A stretch of 64,000 nucleotides of DNA from Cyclonatronum proteinivorum (GCF_003353065.1 NZ_CP027806.1:2128501-2192500); one strand, 5' to 3'. Shown: positions 23,947-31,024, numbered from the stretch's first letter. The notes: generated by a model from the sequence alone, not told the origin. Translations and numbers: made by a program.

Positions 23947-24424
23947 GTAAATCTTGCAAAAAGGCTCTTCATTAGGCCTGCGTTGGTGTTTCAAATAGGC
24001 GTTCAGGATGTTGATAACAATACCCCAACTCGTTCAAAGCGAAAAGGATAAACCGGTTAGAAGACCGGATTATAAACAGGGTTTGAAATACTTGTTCAGA
24101 CAACAATGAAGAGCCTTTAATCATTTGCATTCTGAAAATATTGAAATAATTGTAATTAGGAAAAATAAGGACTCAATTTCAGTGATTTATATGTTAGAAA
24201 AGCGTCTTGCAGCATCAGAAGGCTGTTTATGGTGTCAGGTTCTTCAACACTTCAGCGTTTAACAGAACAGGCTTACAGTTTCATTCTCCCGATGTAGACC
24301 CCTAAGTTTTTGTATTCTTTCATTTTACCTAAAAAAGCGCTTTTTTGGTGTGTTGATATGGATTTTCGCGTTTCACAGCTTTAACTTCAAACAACCCCAA
24401 TATGAAATTAACCTATCTAAAAGT
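23947..24424. other. Divergent intergenic region, menF / GNAT
   Basis: This 478-base, AT-rich gap holds the start regions of the men operon (minus) and the GNAT gene (plus). A small hairpin, CCGGT-TAGAAG-ACCGG, lies at 24053-24068. No convincing small gene, riboswitch or promoter pair was found. The reading frame of the GNAT gene is open back to a GTG at 24350, but that extension is hydrophobic and unlike the family. Confidence 0.5.
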
Positions 24425-24973
24425 ATGATACGTATCCGTCCCGTGGATATGGGAAATATTAAAACCCACCACACGTGGAACAATGACCCCGAACTCAATT
24501 ATTTCGATTCAGATTTCCCGCTTGACCGTGAGCCGTTGTCGCTTTTTTGCAGACGATTACAGGAAATGATGGACGATCCGAATAGCGGCAGTCTGATTCT
24601 TGAGATTCATCATGAAGGCGATCAGAAGCTGATTGGGATTGTCGATATACATGGGATAGACCACATCAACAAGCGCTGCATTATTGAGTGTACCATTGCT
24701 GAAAGAGATTATCAGAATCAGGGTTACGGTACAGCGGCCTTTCGTGAAGCCGTACGCTACTGTTTTGATGAAATGGGAATGAATAAGGTGTCTTCAGCCG
24801 CATTCGATTTTAATGATAAGTGGATCAGAATTCTGACTAATCTTGAATTCACAAAAGAAGGCACGCTCCGGGAGCACGCGGTCAAAAATGGAAAGTATGC
24901 AGATAAACTGGTGTTCAGCCTTCTCAAATCGGAATATGTTACATCTGATCAGTTTCAGATGTCCTTAACATAG
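24425..24973 (+). CDS. GNAT family N-acetyltransferase (RimJ/SpeG-like)
   Basis: This is an acetyl-CoA-dependent acyltransferase, 182 residues from the ATG at 24425 (MIRIRPVDMGNIKTHHTWNN). The layout is that of the RimL/RimJ/SpeG-type GNAT fold: WNNDPELNYFDSDFPL near the N-terminus, the strand LIGIVDIHGIDHINKRC, the acetyl-CoA loop AERDYQNQGYGTAAFREAVRYCF (its core matches the Q/RxxGxG/A pattern) and NKVSSAAFDFNDKWIRILTNLEFTKEGTLREH. The substrate may be a polyamine, a protein N-terminus or an antibiotic; it cannot be told. It is followed after 53 bases by a small exported protein gene. Confidence 0.88.
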   Translation: MIRIRPVDMGNIKTHHTWNNDPELNYFDSDFPLDREPLSLFCRRLQEMMDDPNSGSLILEIHHEGDQKLIGIVDIHGIDHINKRCIIECTIAERDYQNQGYGTAAFREAVRYCFDEMGMNKVSSAAFDFNDKWIRILTNLEFTKEGTLREHAVKNGKYADKLVFSLLKSEYVTSDQFQMSLT

Positions 24974-25026
24974 GGTATGTTAGCGGGCATTGATTGAATG
25001 CAAATCTAACCCGTTACAACACGCCC

Positions 25027-25494
25027 ATGAGAAGTCTTACTGCAGTACTCTTTCCGCTCGCGCTTTTGCTGTCGTTAAATAAAACAGACTCTATTCAGGC
25101 GCAACCGATTTCAGATTCTGATGCAGCTTCGGCTGAAATAGCGTCCCTTTTGGATCAGTTCCTGGAAGGCGCTGCACGCTCTGATGCTGAAATTCATGAC
25201 CGCTTCTGGCACGAGTCGCTGATCTATACTTCATCCGCCGGCATCCGGTTCGGAAAAGCGGATCTGATGTCGGGCTTAAACCCGCTGCCATCCGACACCG
25301 AGCCGGAGCTGTTTTACCACGCTGAAGAGGTACACATCCGGTTTGTTGAAAACCTTGCCGTTCTGCATTTTACCCTTGTAGCCACGGACGGAGAGACGGA
25401 AAGCCGCTTCCTGAATTCCGGAATACTCATGCAGGAAGAAGGTCAGTGGCAGGTCATCAGCTGGCAGGCGACGGTAAAAGCGAGCGAACCGTAA
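25027..25494 (+). CDS. Exported NTF2-like (DUF4440-type) protein
   Basis: From the ATG at 25027 the protein is 155 residues with an N-terminal signal peptide (MRSLTAVLFPLALLLSL, probable cleavage near SIQA-QP). The mature part has the SnoaL/DUF4440 plan: an N-terminal helix with LLDQFLEGAARSDAE, HDRFWHESLIYTSSAGIRFGKADLM, and a final beta-sheet ending in EEGQWQVISWQATVK. Members form cone-shaped dimers that bind small ligands, and no catalytic residue is predicted here. Eleven codons further upstream are open from a TTG but would disrupt the signal peptide. Confidence 0.82.
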   Translation: MRSLTAVLFPLALLLSLNKTDSIQAQPISDSDAASAEIASLLDQFLEGAARSDAEIHDRFWHESLIYTSSAGIRFGKADLMSGLNPLPSDTEPELFYHAEEVHIRFVENLAVLHFTLVATDGETESRFLNSGILMQEEGQWQVISWQATVKASEP

Positions 25495-25509
25495 CTTTTT
25501 ATTTGTAAC

Positions 25510-25558
25510 AAAAAAAAAGCCCGTTCCGGCTTACTTGGCAGTTCCGGAACGGGCTTTT
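25510..25558. terminator. Bidirectional intrinsic terminator
   Basis: AAAAGCCCGTTCCGG pairs with CCGGAACGGGCTTTT across an ACTTGGCAG-type loop. The A-run on the left and T-run on the right let it serve both the plus-strand DUF4440 gene and the convergent DUF3299 gene. Confidence 0.92.
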
Positions 25559-25584
25559 GTGTATTAAACGGTTTGTCTTTCGCT

Positions 25585-26142
25585 TTACAAATCTCCGTAG
25601 AAATGAAAGTTATCCGGCAGGCCGTCAAGCTCTACATCTGAGGAGCTGCCGGAGCTTACCCGCGCATTTGTGATGGTGTACACACTCACCAGAAATCCTT
25701 CCACAAAAACTTCATCAATATTGAGAGTGCCGGTAACCCGGAGCGGTTCATAGGTGTAGGTTGAAAGCGGCCTTGCAGTTTCAATCATCAGGGTTTCATT
25801 TGCCTGTGGCGGCGGCACGTGCATACACCCCATAAATGGTGCCTGCAGCAATATAAACTGCGTGATATTTTCAATGCGGTCGAAGGGGACCATATAGCCG
25901 ATTACCGAAATCTCCTGACCATCGAGGGCTTTCAGATCTTCGGGAATTTCAGCGTTTTGCCGGTGAATCTGATACTTGCGAAAGTCGCTGAACATGACTC
26001 TGGGAGCTTCTGAAGTGACGGTACCATGTTCCGCTTCAGGGCTGCCTTTGAAGGCGGAGGCGTCTGTTCGGAGCATGAAGAGGACCAAAATTACGGCAGT
26101 CAGTACTGCCGTGAAGCTCAAAGAATAGGAAGCGGTAGTCAT
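25585..26142 (-). CDS. DUF3299 family exported protein
   Basis: The 185-residue product has one N-terminal hydrophobic segment (residues 8-23) and a periplasmic domain of the DUF3299 type. It shows the GYMVPFDRIENITQFIL block and the typical CMHVPPPQANE motif, where family members have a Cys/His pair followed by PPP. The ATG at 26142 is preferred over the in-frame TTG at 26148. It lies 24 bases after the His-loop permease. In Pseudomonas and Vibrio, DUF3299 genes accompany a Zur-regulated ABC system (PA4063-PA4066 and zrg types); that link supports a metal-related role, but the molecular job is not known. Confidence 0.85.
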   Translation of the reverse strand: MTTASYSLSFTAVLTAVILVLFMLRTDASAFKGSPEAEHGTVTSEAPRVMFSDFRKYQIHRQNAEIPEDLKALDGQEISVIGYMVPFDRIENITQFILLQAPFMGCMHVPPPQANETLMIETARPLSTYTYEPLRVTGTLNIDEVFVEGFLVSVYTITNARVSSGSSSDVELDGLPDNFHFYGDL

Positions 26143-26166
26143 AATCAAAAAGGATTGTAGATAAGT

Positions 26167-27702
26167 TTAGGGAGCAAGATTACGCACCACATCGGTACGG
26201 TAGGCTTTTAATGCCGGAATAATGCCGGCCAATATGCCAAGCATAAGAAAAGAAAGCAAGGTAACGAAATGTGAGCCGTGTATTGCATAGGCTGAAACAA
26301 TGATTCCGCCGGTTTCAGCAAGGAATGGGGCAACCGCTGCCACAATGGCCATGCCACCGGCGAGACCCGCAATACATCCGATACCGACGATAATGCCCGC
26401 TTCAAGTAAAATCAGGGTGAGAACCGTTCCGCGGCTTGCCCCAAGCGACCGCATGATGGCAATGTCGCGTCGTCTGTCTTCCATTGTATTATAGATGGCA
26501 ACAAGAACTCCGAAGAGGGCCACAATGAAAACGAGCCAGCCGACATAGCGGAGGACCTGTTCTGCATTTCCGATAATGCTCATCAGTTCCTGAATCTGAA
26601 TGGCAGGTACTACGGCCATCAGCTCGTCTTTGTAAGCGAAGAAAGGATCGCGCATCATATTTCTGGCAATGAGCGGATTTTCGGGCGTCGGCATATTGAT
26701 CATGCCGGTGAGCTGCAGGGCGGCAGCCTGATTGCCAAACTTCAGCAGAACCGCATCGAGGCGGCTCACCCGGCTCTCATATTCATCAAGCGGGAGCGGG
26801 AACTGCCGGCTGAGTCGGGCTACCATCTCTTCGAGCTGTGCAGTATTTGCTTCAGCGTGATGATGTCTGTGCCGGTGATCATGGTCATGCCCGTTCGCAT
26901 GAGCGTCGTGCCCGTGCCCGTGCTCGTGCTCGTGCTCATGGTCATGGTCATGCTCGTGATCATGATCATGTCCGTGTCCGTGTCCGTTTTCGTGTTCATG
27001 CTCGTGCTCGTGTCCGTGTCCGTGTTCATGCTCATGATCGTGCCCATGTGCGTGATAATGCACTTCGTAGGCGCTGAAGATGCTTGTAAATATCACATTG
27101 TCATGCGCTGTACGGCTCGGTTCAAGAATGCCGGTAATAACGAGTTCGTACTCTTCATGCACGTGTGGTTCTGCGTCTTCATCATCGAGTTCGCTTACCC
27201 CATGGGTCATGTAAAACGTATGTCCGATGCCGATTCCCAGACGCCGGGCAGCATTGCTCCCGATTACGGCTTCAAAGGGTCGCTCGAAGTTACGGCCTTC
27301 TGCCATTTGGAACGGCTGACCAGTTCGCGGTTCACCTTCGGCTATAAAGGCTGCGGATGTACCTACAATGCGGACGCCGCGGTAATTGTCGCCGACAAAA
27401 ACAGGAAAAGCGCGCTCAATGCGGCCGTCGCGGAGTGCTGTTTGGTAAACCGCGCCGGGAATTACACCGGTAGAGGTTTCCAGGTGATAGATGGTGTTGA
27501 GGGTGGTTTGCATCCGGCTTCCGGGTGCAGCAAGAATAACATCAAAGCCAACCGAAGTTTGGGTGTAGCCTTGTTCCGTTTCTCTTTCTAATGTTTGCAC
27601 GGCGATTACAAGTGAAGCTGCAAGTGCTACGGAAGCGATCGTCAGTACACTACTGAGCAGCCGAAGCCGCATGTTTTTGAAAACAATCTTCAGAGGATTC
27701 AT
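26167..27702 (-). CDS. MacB/FtsX-like ABC permease with histidine-rich periplasmic loop
   Basis: This 511-residue permease has one N-terminal transmembrane segment (about residues 13-33), a large periplasmic domain (about 35-385) and three C-terminal segments (about 388-505), which is the MacB/FtsX fold. Conserved cytoplasmic-loop features are RRRDIAIMRSLGASRGTV. Inside the periplasmic domain, residues about 214-284 are a run of alternating His with Asp, Glu or Gly, with over 30 histidines in about 70 residues, almost surely a Zn/Ni/Co-binding loop. The gene overlaps the upstream ATPase by ATGA. I infer zinc import or periplasmic zinc handling; a lipoprotein-type exporter is the alternative. 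Confidence 0.88.
   Translation of the reverse strand: MNPLKIVFKNMRLRLLSSVLTIASVALAASLVIAVQTLERETEQGYTQTSVGFDVILAAPGSRMQTTLNTIYHLETSTGVIPGAVYQTALRDGRIERAFPVFVGDNYRGVRIVGTSAAFIAEGEPRTGQPFQMAEGRNFERPFEAVIGSNAARRLGIGIGHTFYMTHGVSELDDEDAEPHVHEEYELVITGILEPSRTAHDNVIFTSIFSAYEVHYHAHGHDHEHEHGHGHEHEHEHENGHGHGHDHDHEHDHDHEHEHEHGHGHDAHANGHDHDHRHRHHHAEANTAQLEEMVARLSRQFPLPLDEYESRVSRLDAVLLKFGNQAAALQLTGMINMPTPENPLIARNMMRDPFFAYKDELMAVVPAIQIQELMSIIGNAEQVLRYVGWLVFIVALFGVLVAIYNTMEDRRRDIAIMRSLGASRGTVLTLILLEAGIIVGIGCIAGLAGGMAIVAAVAPFLAETGGIIVSAYAIHGSHFVTLLSFLMLGILAGIIPALKAYRTDVVRNLAP
26845..27062 (-). repeat. Hexamer-like CAC/CAT repeat tract coding the His loop
   Basis: The DNA alternates CAT/CAC codons with GAG, GAC or GGC codons, giving a strong 6-base periodicity over about 200 bases. 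Short identical blocks such as GTGCTCGTGCTC and GTGTCCGTGTCC (plus strand) are repeated. Such tracts are prone to slippage in multiples of two codons, so the loop length could vary between strains. Confidence 0.85.
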
Positions 27703-28370
27703 GCGCTAACTACCTCATTGAGTTCGCTTAGGTCAATGGTTGTTTCAAACTGTGCCAAAACTTCGGTTTCATGGCTGACTAATATGAGTGTTTTGCCGGC
27801 AGTCAGCTCTTTAATCAGGGAAAGGACTTCGGCGGAGGTTTTGGGATCAAGGGAACCGGTTGGCTCATCTGCCAGGATAATATCCGGGTCGTTGGCGAGT
27901 GCACGTGCGATGCAAACCCGCTGTTGCTGACCTACCGAAAGCTGTGAAGGCCGGTTATGCAGCCGCCCGCTCAGGCCAACGCTGTTTAACAGATCCTTTG
28001 CGCGGGATACGGGTTTCTTTTTATCGGCAAACTGCATCCCAAGCTGAACATTTTCAAGCGCGGTGAAGCCATCCAGCAGATTGAAAGACTGAAAAATGTA
28101 GCCTATGTTGTTGGCCCGAAAACGGTCGCGATCCGATTCGCTGAGACGCGTAATATCTGTGCCGGAAACGGAAACAGATCCCGAATCAGGCAGGGTCATG
28201 CCGCTTATGCAGTGTAGCAGCGTAGTTTTTCCCGAACCGGATGTACCCCGGACGGCCAGGTGTTTTCCGGTAGGCAATGTAAATGCCGGAATGTCTAAAA
28301 TCGGAACCCGCTGACCTGTTGAAGGGTCAGGGTAGCTCTTCCTGACATTTGTGAGTTGTATCGCAGACAT
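27699..28370 (-). CDS. ABC transporter ATP-binding protein, LolD/MacB type
   Basis: This 223-residue ATPase has Walker A GTSGSGKTTLL near residue 39, Q-loop YIFQSFNLL, signature LSVGQQQRVCIARAL, Walker B ILADEPTGSLD and the switch His in LVSHE. The sequence is of the LolD/MacB-ATPase class, which drives mechanotransmission-type exporters rather than typical importers. The signature reads LSVGQ instead of LSGGQ. It overlaps the permease by four bases (ATGA) and starts 63 bases after the DUF192 gene. Confidence 0.92.
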   Translation of the reverse strand: MSAIQLTNVRKSYPDPSTGQRVPILDIPAFTLPTGKHLAVRGTSGSGKTTLLHCISGMTLPDSGSVSVSGTDITRLSESDRDRFRANNIGYIFQSFNLLDGFTALENVQLGMQFADKKKPVSRAKDLLNSVGLSGRLHNRPSQLSVGQQQRVCIARALANDPDIILADEPTGSLDPKTSAEVLSLIKELTAGKTLILVSHETEVLAQFETTIDLSELNEVVSA

Positions 28371-28433
28371 AAAGCGTATGCAGAATAAGGATGAATAGTT
28401 AATCAGTCGGTTTCAGATGTACCGAAACAGTTT

Positions 28434-28919
28434 TTATCGGACAAATTCTATAAAGTGCCCTTCCTGAATATCGTGGGCCGCTGTAAAGCCCCCGTGTACT
28501 TCCACAACATACAGAGCGGGTGCAACGGAGGGATATTGTTGCTGTGAAAAGGGAGTGGTATTTTGATGGATACGCACTATCTCGAAATCTTCATTGGCAA
28601 AAACCATGTCAAGCGAAAGCGGGGTGTTTGCCATCCAGAAGCTGAGCGGTTCCTGCCGCTCGAAAATAAAAATCATGCCCGCGTCTTCCGGCATTTCATA
28701 TACGTTCATCAGGCCCTGTTGCCGCGCCATGTTACTCTCAGCAACCGCAACACGCACACTTGTTAACGGCTCTTCGGAATCGGGAGTCGTTTTAAAATGA
28801 ACGGTAGCCGGAAACTCGAGTACCCGTGCAGCAGAGGCCGCGGGTGTTTGTTGTTCATTATCGGTTCCGCAGCCGTTAAGGAACAGGACTATTCCTATCA
28901 GGAAGAAAAAGTATTTCAT
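28434..28919 (-). CDS. DUF192 family lipoprotein
   Basis: This 161-residue protein has a lipoprotein signal peptide (MKYFFFLIGIVLFLNGCGTD, lipobox LNGC). The DUF192 domain then fills residues about 45-160. Its family blocks are seen: VAESNMARQQGLMNV, GMIFIFERQEPLSFWMANTPLSLDMVF and an alternating strand region near VVEVHGGFTAAHDI. DUF192 proteins are small beta-barrel proteins of unclear function. Here it is probably the first gene of the His-loop transporter transcript. Confidence 0.85.
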   Translation of the reverse strand: MKYFFFLIGIVLFLNGCGTDNEQQTPAASAARVLEFPATVHFKTTPDSEEPLTSVRVAVAESNMARQQGLMNVYEMPEDAGMIFIFERQEPLSFWMANTPLSLDMVFANEDFEIVRIHQNTTPFSQQQYPSVAPALYVVEVHGGFTAAHDIQEGHFIEFVR

Positions 28920-29089
28920 GCTTTAAGAGGGAGTTTGATAGTTGCTTAATTGGGAATGCCGCAAACATAAAGAAGTATGGGTGCAAAATTAAGGAATTGT
29001 TTGCGTTAATCCGGCCTTATAAAATGCAAAAAGGTTGCATGTCCGGGCTTGTCAAAGATCTTTAGGTCGCTAAGGGGCGGTGTGTTGTG

Positions 29090-29121
29090 TTTGTATAAGC
29101 AGCTAAAATAGCGTATATTTA
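29090..29121 (+). promoter_or_regulatory. Candidate Bacteroidota-type promoter of the rimP operon
   Basis: TTTG at 29090-29093 is followed after 20 bases by TATATTTA at 29114-29121. This matches the TTTG / TAnnTTTG consensus of the phylum at all but one base. It is well placed to transcribe the hairpin at 29134-29169 and the rimP-nusA block. Confidence 0.45.
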
Positions 29122-29133
29122 AAATCTGTATGA

Positions 29134-29169
29134 AAGTGAGCCCGCACTAACGGGACTCACTTTTTTTTT
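29134..29169 (+). terminator. Leader terminator/attenuator upstream of rimP
   Basis: AAGTGAGCCCG (29134-29144) pairs with CGGGACTCACTT (29151-29162) with one bulged base, and nine T residues follow the stem. It is a convincing intrinsic terminator standing about 95 bases before the rimP start. It most likely regulates the operon by premature termination; NusA, encoded second, is a plausible feedback factor. Confidence 0.75.
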
Positions 29170-29263
29170 ATCAGAATTTGTTAACAGAATGACCGTACAC
29201 CATCTGTCAGATACACAAGATGATGGATGGCGCCGGTTTTAAAGCGTACAATCATTGACATAA

Positions 29264-29740
29264 ATGCTACAAAAAGATTCACAACTTGATGAAATTCGCA
29301 GTCTTATCACGCGCAATCTAACGCGGGAAGATGTGTTTTTGGTGGATTTGGAGCTGAAAAGCAGTTCCGGAGCACCGTCTTTGTCGGTTTACATTGAGTC
29401 CGACTCCGGTGGCATTAAGCTTGACGACTGTGCGCTCATCAGCAGACAGGTGCAAACCGTTATTGAAGCACACGAAGTGCTGGGCGACCGTTTTACGCTC
29501 AACGTTTCATCACCGGGGCTTGACCGGCCTTTGAAACTGCAGCGTCAGTACTACCTGAATATTGGCCGAAAGGCAAGGGTAAAGCATCAGGCCGAAACTG
29601 AGAAAGGGCCAGAAGTTGTGGTAACAGAAGGGCAGCTTAAGCAGGTTGATGATGATCACATCATCCTGCAAATGCAAAAAAAAGAAGCTGTGATACGCTT
29701 CGGGCACATCATCGAAACCAAAATCATTCCGTCTTTCTAA
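29264..29740 (+). CDS. rimP: Ribosome maturation factor RimP
   Basis: RimP assists late 30S subunit assembly. The 158-residue protein has the N-terminal alpha/beta domain with DVFLVDLELKSSSGAPSL and DDCALISRQVQTVIE, the junction motif LNVSSPGLDRPLK near residue 85, and a C-terminal SH3-like barrel. Length and gene order (rimP-nusA-infB) are standard. The ATG at 29264 follows a long leader containing a terminator-like hairpin. Confidence 0.94.
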   Translation: MLQKDSQLDEIRSLITRNLTREDVFLVDLELKSSSGAPSLSVYIESDSGGIKLDDCALISRQVQTVIEAHEVLGDRFTLNVSSPGLDRPLKLQRQYYLNIGRKARVKHQAETEKGPEVVVTEGQLKQVDDDHIILQMQKKEAVIRFGHIIETKIIPSF

Positions 29741-29764
29741 GAGATACGTATTCCGGAGAAAACC

Positions 29765-31024
29765 ATGTCAAACGAAGAAAGCAAACTTATTATTCAGTAC
29801 TTCGCTGAAATTGCCAGAGAAAAAAATATTGGCAAAGATATGCTCATGACTATCCTTGAGGAAGTCTTTCGCTCAATGATCCGCAGAAAGTACGGCTCTG
29901 ATGAAGCTTTCGAAATTATTCTGAACCCGGATCGCGGTGATATTCAGATGTTTCACACGCGCGAAGTTGTGCCTGATGAAGAACTGACCAACGAAGCTAC
30001 TGAAATCAAATTTTCAGAAGCAACGAAGCTTGATCCCGATCTTGAGCTGTTTGATGAGTATGCACAGGAAATTTTCATTACAGATTTTGGGCGCCGGTCG
30101 GTACTGACTGCACGGCAGACCCTCGCGCAGCGCATTCGTGAAATTGAAAAAGAGAAGCTGTATCAGGAATACACCGAAAGAATAGGGGAAATTGTATTGG
30201 GCGATGTGTATCAGATTCGCGCGCGCGATATACTGATCAACCATAACAGCACCGAGCTTGTTATGCCCAAAAGCCAGCAAATTCCCAAAGACAGATACCG
30301 CAAGGGCGATACCATCCGCTGTGTGATTGAAGATGTTAAGCTCGACAATGGAAATCTGAGCATCATCGTATCACGAACCTCACCTGCCTTTTTGGAGCGC
30401 CTGTTCGAAAACGAAATTCCGGAAGTTTACGATGGAATCATCGATATTAAAAAGGTTGTGCGTGAACCTGGTGACCGCTCTAAGGTAGCTGTAGTTTCTA
30501 ATGATGAGCGTGTTGATGCTGTTGGTGCCTGTGTAGGTATGAAGGGCATCCGCATTCATTCCATTGTTCGTGAGCTGTGTAATGAGAACATTGATGTCAT
30601 TAATTTCACGACGGATAAAATAGAATTCATTAAGCGTGCGCTTCAGCCCGCCCGTGTTTTGTCCGTTGACCTGAATGCAGCCGGAAATCATGCCAAAGTT
30701 AACGTGCCTGCCGACCAGGTCTCTAAAGCTATTGGAAAAGGCGGCGTCAACATCAAGTTGGCCAGTGCGCTGACCGGCTGTGAGATTGATGTTTACCGCG
30801 AAACGGACTATGAAGACGATATTGAAATTTCGGAATTTGAAGAAGACTTCGGGATGGATGTAGTTGATGTGCTCTATGAAATAGGGTGTGACAGTGCCCG
30901 TGCGGTATTGCGGCTCAACCCGGCTGAACTCGTACGCCGAACCAACGGGCGTATCGATGAATACAGCGCCAAAAATATCTTCAAGATAATTCGTGATGAG
31001 TTTGATGAAGATGAGTTAATTTAA
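29765..31024 (+). CDS. nusA: Transcription termination/antitermination factor NusA
   Basis: NusA binds RNA polymerase and nascent RNA, controlling pausing, termination and antitermination. The 419-residue protein has the N-terminal polymerase-binding domain (about 1-130), an S1 domain (about 135-200), and two KH domains (about 205-350) with VGACVGMKGIRIHSIVREL and KAIGKGGVNIKLASALTG. A C-terminal helical repeat remnant follows, with an acidic stretch (YEDDIEISEFEEDF). It is shorter than E. coli NusA, lacking the full second acidic repeat. It starts 24 bases after rimP and is a good candidate for feedback on the leader terminator. Confidence 0.95.
   Translation: MSNEESKLIIQYFAEIAREKNIGKDMLMTILEEVFRSMIRRKYGSDEAFEIILNPDRGDIQMFHTREVVPDEELTNEATEIKFSEATKLDPDLELFDEYAQEIFITDFGRRSVLTARQTLAQRIREIEKEKLYQEYTERIGEIVLGDVYQIRARDILINHNSTELVMPKSQQIPKDRYRKGDTIRCVIEDVKLDNGNLSIIVSRTSPAFLERLFENEIPEVYDGIIDIKKVVREPGDRSKVAVVSNDERVDAVGACVGMKGIRIHSIVRELCNENIDVINFTTDKIEFIKRALQPARVLSVDLNAAGNHAKVNVPADQVSKAIGKGGVNIKLASALTGCEIDVYRETDYEDDIEISEFEEDFGMDVVDVLYEIGCDSARAVLRLNPAELVRRTNGRIDEYSAKNIFKIIRDEFDEDELI

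Follow-up and report, generated by a model that had tools for sequence, protein, structure and literature searches.

A role in zinc acquisition has been reported for the zrg operon of Vibrio (PMC9820375, PMC9817125). In V. cholerae, ZrgA is needed for the zinc function of the operon, whereas ZrgA can do without its own His-rich loop (PMC9820375). PA4063, the ZrgA of Pseudomonas aeruginosa, binds zinc with micromolar affinity (PMC8561739). For PA4064-PA4065, a role as a MacB-type exporter of pyochelin-cobalt has been put forward (PMC11481552). The mode of action of Zrg/PA4063-type systems, and even the direction of transport, is disputed.

A related putative operon is found in the window analyzed here, by which we mean the whole stretch of 64,000 nucleotides of Cyclonatronum proteinivorum DNA. 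A preliminary description had listed four adjacent genes, and all four lie where it placed them, on the minus strand. The features referred to below are the following.

28434-28919, minus strand: DUF192 lipoprotein, which heads the putative operon (PF02643, E = 4.7e-29; lipobox LNGC)
27699-28370, minus strand: LolD/MacB-type ABC ATPase, ZrgC (PA4064)-like (PF00005, E = 2.5e-34)
26167-27702, minus strand: MacB/FtsX-type permease, ZrgB (PA4065)-like, with His-rich loop (PF02687 and PF12704; FtsX, MacB_PCD)
25585-26148, minus strand: DUF3299 protein, ZrgE (PA4066)-like (PF11736, E = 3.9e-15)
26857-27066, minus strand: permease residues 213-282, forming the His-rich loop (70 residues, of which 33 are His)
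27202-27204, minus strand: His167 of the permease, invariant in the alignment of relatives
27157-27159, minus strand: His182 of the permease, invariant in the alignment of relatives
27058-27060, minus strand: His215 of the permease, invariant in the alignment of relatives, at the foot of the His-rich loop
29025-29039, no strand: TGCAA-N5-TTGCA palindrome, a candidate box for a FUR-family regulator (Zur), lying 105 bp upstream of where DUF192 starts

The supposed homology to the Zrg/PA4063-PA4066 core was upheld, as the ATPase, permease and DUF3299 families match ZrgC-ZrgB-ZrgE (PA4064-PA4066). With ZrgABCDE of V. cholerae and V. parahaemolyticus, the window operon has in common a homologous ZrgC ATPase, a MacB-like ZrgB permease, a DUF3299 protein and a zinc-starvation context; with P. 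aeruginosa, it shares the three core families PA4064, PA4065 and PA4066. One profile family covers the window permease and the Pseudomonas and Vibrio permeases encoded beside ZrgA. Homologous permeases adjacent to ZrgA occur in Pseudomonas, Vibrio, Photobacterium and Salinivibrio with a common ATPase-permease-DUF3299 order, and in the locus survey the ATPase gene preceded the permease gene in most relatives. The C. proteinivorum genome has a single DUF3299 gene, and the GxCxHVPPP segment of its product is common to the Vibrio and Pseudomonas homologues. In contrast to Vibrio, which has a separate ZrgA and a loopless permease, the window operon has no ZrgA, a loop with 33 His and an extra DUF192 lipoprotein. 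PA4063 (ZrgA) of the P. aeruginosa system is likewise missing, and the loops of the surveyed Pseudomonas permeases hold 0-1 His. Because ZrgA was searched for and found absent, we did not file the window operon as Zrg(ABCDE) despite the common core. Our preferred reading, to which we assign a probability of about two in three, is that the operon encodes a Zur-regulated ZrgB-type zinc-starvation transporter in which a tethered His-rich loop does the metal-capture job of ZrgA.

The DUF192 gene does stand at the head of the set, as first described, but this arrangement is specific to one Balneolota sub-lineage. It adjoins the operon in the genus, in family f3 and in locus L023, and was undetected at the other loci surveyed, so that DUF192 was rejected as a general part of the operon. 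In a relative of the same order (locus L010, 2810-3112), a gene for an HMA-domain lipoprotein lies between the DUF192 and ATPase genes. No Rfam elements were found within positions 24000-30000.

The permease has four transmembrane segments and a large periplasmic domain, and its ATPase is encoded separately, which is a split MacB-type arrangement. An AlphaFold2 model was confident over most of its length (mean pLDDT 82.7), with pLDDT below 50 at residues 170-172 and 221-280. Foldseek identified MacB, LolCDE, YtrEF, HrtBA and YbbAP as fold neighbors. The NCBIfam models for MacB (19 bits, cut-off 966) and for LolC/LolE (TIGR02212; 27.8 bits, cut-off 362) scored far below their thresholds, as did models of similar families. 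The window operon resembles the mechanotransmission transporters MacB (MacAB-TolC) and LolCDE in permease fold and ATPase family, but differs in having a separate ATPase gene, no MacA neighbor and a single permease. Since MacB-type transporters are not classical importers, the fold match to MacB and LolCDE, together with the pyochelin-cobalt proposal for PA4064-PA4065, would fit export of the metallophore-metal type rather than zinc uptake. We consider this unlikely: genes for a MacA adaptor, TolC or metallophores were not found adjoining the operon in the window, the Vibrio zrg operon is implicated in zinc acquisition, and the palindrome listed above also precedes a TonB receptor gene divergent from a DtxR-znuA pair, which fits uptake.

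The permease contains 41 His in total, 33 of which fall within residues 213-282. This confirms the earlier count of over 30 His in about 70 residues, with a slight offset in position (26857-27066 rather than 26845-27062). The DNA encoding the loop is a degenerate 6-bp array; because its His codons are mixed (CAC/CAT, 18/15) and dozens of relatives preserve the H-x-H frame, the loop appears to have been kept as protein rather than being a repeat accident. The low pLDDT at residues 221-280 predicts that the loop is disordered. Its insertion point in the permease is fixed, immediately behind an invariant His, and its length varies greatly among relatives. In most gammaproteobacterial permeases from ZrgA-bearing genomes, this site has 0-2 His. 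In ZrgA-less genomes of the Alteromonas-order sample, the longest loop had 244 residues (67 His) and the richest had 70 His (193 residues). Loci L201 and L218-L220, from ZrgA-less genomes of this sample, have loops of 187-244 residues with 51-70 His and one or two Zur-box matches upstream.

His167, His182 and His215 (window numbering) were His in 161/161 and 131/131 aligned permeases, 216 of them distinct, irrespective of the presence of the loop. These three residues are a feature of the ZrgB-type subfamily of MacB_PCD/FtsX permeases, and the window permease has all of them. In the model, H167 closes one strand and H182 opens the next, and they may therefore flank one hairpin tip; H215 sits in a helix that runs into the loop. 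We regard H167/H182/H215 as a candidate metal site, in which the three residues would cluster. The triad was not seen at the LolF HG position in profile alignment.

A profile search for ZrgA (DUF2796/PF10986) found no match in the whole C. proteinivorum genome. This absence is informative because ZrgA-bearing genomes do give a match in such a search. The earlier statement that no separate His-rich protein exists was thus borne out genome-wide, and a standalone DUF2796 gene, which would have spoken against the proposed arrangement, was looked for and not found. For comparison of homologues with and without the loop, which had been suggested at the outset, we scored 369 Pseudomonas-class genomes (48 with the permease), 248 Alteromonas-order genomes (88 with the permease) and the survey loci. 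The resulting table comprised 156 genomes, mostly Gammaproteobacteria, in which ZrgA was searched genome-wide and a rich loop was defined as at least four His. The loop and ZrgA were inversely distributed: 102 of the 103 ZrgA-positive genomes had fewer than four His in the loop, and 46 of the 53 ZrgA-negative genomes had at least four (Fisher's p = 8e-31, a statistic that ignores relatedness). On a permease tree built with the loop columns removed, roughly 9 state changes were counted for the loop and roughly 10 for ZrgA. A model of dependent evolution outperformed an independent one on this tree (LR 42.1, 4 df, p = 1.6e-8), a test that is open to pseudo-replication since a few large clades weigh heavily; an independent-pairs sign test, with too few pairs to reach significance, gave p = 0.375. 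In an unrooted permease tree, all ZrgA-positive rows fell in one clade. Alteromonas, Pseudoalteromonas, an Oligoflexales MAG and G251 belong to this clade but show the loop form again. ZrgA occurred only in Gammaproteobacteria in this sample, and the separate ZrgA may for that reason be the newer arrangement. Across more than 200 related permeases, one design is almost always found in place of the other.

The only ZrgA-positive genome with a rich loop was that of Pseudoalteromonas sp. A601, whose distant ZrgA adjoins FUR and MerC-like genes without a permease. Apart from the later Bacteroidota sample, seven ZrgA-negative genomes had poor loops. Three of these loci (L085, L108 and L215) are at or near contig ends, two (L160 and L221) keep three His, and inspection of the ZrgA-less poor loop left over at L103 revealed no accounting feature. 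In L039 (Mangrovicoccus), where the permease is loopless and ZrgA-less, a PCuAC protein with a His-rich N-terminus is encoded directly downstream (1553-2161) and is a possible third substitute for ZrgA. ZrgA predicts a poor loop; where ZrgA is missing, the loop is rich in most cases, though not in all. Poor loops in some ZrgA-less permeases, the wide difference in loop length between close relatives, the 6-bp repeat array and the dispensability of the His loop of ZrgA (PMC9820375) would all be expected if the loop were a mere zinc buffer or a slippage-prone low-complexity stretch, with the family working through the invariant His triad alone. The near-exclusion of rich loops from ZrgA-positive genomes (1/103), the His frame kept in many lineages and the growth of loops to 70 His make this improbable, and we hold to the reading in which the loop replaces ZrgA.

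The permease was present in 62 of the 394 genomes sampled from the phylum of the window, and none of the permease-bearing Bacteroidota sample genomes had ZrgA above cut-off. Among 66 loops of the Bacteroidota group, which are also acidic, 43 had at least five His, 50 had at least four and four had 0-1. As 16 of the 66 had fewer than four, a strict rule equating the absence of ZrgA with a rich loop was ruled out. The loop form was also found in Gamma-, Alpha- and Betaproteobacteria, Planctomycetota and Bdellovibrionota. The loop is an elongated insertion, predicted to be disordered, in a broad permease family, and the loop-bearing form is the common one in Bacteroidota. The idea of a locally rearranged variant consequently had to be abandoned, given that the form is common in one phylum and recurs in several other phyla and classes. 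The further idea of a metal trap built into the permease held in part: a His-rich permease segment is present in place of ZrgA, but ZrgA is not fused into the permease, which has only a His-rich insert and, like the rest of the genome, no ZrgA match. We found no report of the His-rich loop, or of its exchange with ZrgA, in the open-licence literature.

The gene context points, by prediction, to zinc. At some of the ZrgA-less loci, in Gammaproteobacteria as well as in Balneolales and other Bacteroidota, the operon adjoins genes for a COG0523 GTPase, a FUR-family regulator or MerC, and domain searches confirmed these assignments. Permease homologues in non-metal operons lacking DUF3299 had been named as evidence that would count against a metal system; most homologues adjoin DUF3299, and some FUR, COG0523 or MerC, but a minority of Bacteroidota loci have no DUF3299. 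Zur-box matches (TGTTATANTATAACA, at most two mismatches) were located 16-119 bp upstream of the ATPase start in 16 of 37 non-Bacteroidota His-loop loci; shuffled sequence totalling 1.5 Mb gave 17 matches. In the window, TGCAA-N5-TTGCA at 29025-29039 was the only match with at most one mismatch, although a single match of this kind would not stand out on its own. The same palindrome precedes the operon in G002, G038, L023 and some other Bacteroidota, among them L256 and L265, where FUR/MerC genes adjoin. Elsewhere in the C. proteinivorum genome, it is located 36 bp upstream of a FUR gene that is followed by MerC (L305, 601-1479; G000:C1 near 2286100-2286550) and in the interval between the TonB receptor gene and the DtxR-znuA pair. 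The FUR protein of L305 resembles the FUR proteins encoded next to ZrgB-type operons of Bacteroidota more closely than those encoded next to ZrgA in Gammaproteobacteria. We propose the palindrome as a candidate box of the Zur type in Balneolota and other Bacteroidota. The genome contains 20 perfect copies, several of them within genes; some others precede unrelated genes, and the regulon is accordingly a prediction.

One copy of the palindrome is 71 bp upstream of a Pyr_redox_2 oxidoreductase gene in the C. proteinivorum genome (L294, 371-1444), and a similar-looking oxidoreductase is found beside COG0523 and DUF3299 in G058 (L286). MerC-family genes recur beside ZrgB-type operons (L012, L013, L014, L256, L265 and L234), ZrgA-FUR (L131) and FUR (L305), which suggests a zinc-linked role for this MerC subgroup. 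Such MerC neighbors, the single HMA-domain lipoprotein neighbor and the link of cobalt to PA4065 (PMC11481552) could be taken to mean that the substrate is Co, Cu, Ni or Hg instead of zinc. We regard another metal as very improbable, considering the Zur-box matches upstream of gammaproteobacterial His-loop operons, the COG0523 and FUR neighbors and the presence of ZnuA beside a copy of the common palindrome.

In the zinc-transporter reading that we prefer, Zur of the FUR family probably represses the operon when zinc is sufficient. Upon starvation, the flexible permease loop would take over periplasmic metal capture from ZrgA and concentrate Zn(II) next to the site of the invariant His167/182/215. 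ATP-driven mechanotransmission of the MacB type would then move or hand on the metal or a metal complex. The exchange of ZrgA for the loop is best accommodated if either of them increases the concentration of metal around the periplasmic domain of the permease, with the invariant His as the receiving site. A comparable compensation has been proposed for UreG, whose His stretch may stand in for the missing metallochaperone UreE (PMC2770081). In both cases a His stretch in one protein replaces a missing metal-delivering partner, but UreG is a cytosolic nickel GTPase, whereas the stretch in the window belongs to a periplasmic loop of an ABC permease. Because V. cholerae ZrgA is essential for operon function and its own His loop is not (PMC9820375), a His loop alone may not equal ZrgA.

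More speculatively, and with the odds somewhat against it, ZrgB-type permeases may form a large, mostly unrecognized class of zinc ABC transporters that work without a separate substrate-binding protein. The loop form would then be older or more widespread, ZrgA would be a later gammaproteobacterial addition that made the loop dispensable, and the three-His site would be the real metal entry of a MacB-like machine. The exchange of ZrgA and the loop speaks for a direct action of ZrgA on the permease, to which it would supply metal, and the invariant His triad provides mutable residues with which to probe MacB-type transporters for a metal site. With the loop-bearing operons, this predicted type of zinc operon extends to Bacteroidota, together with a candidate regulator box.
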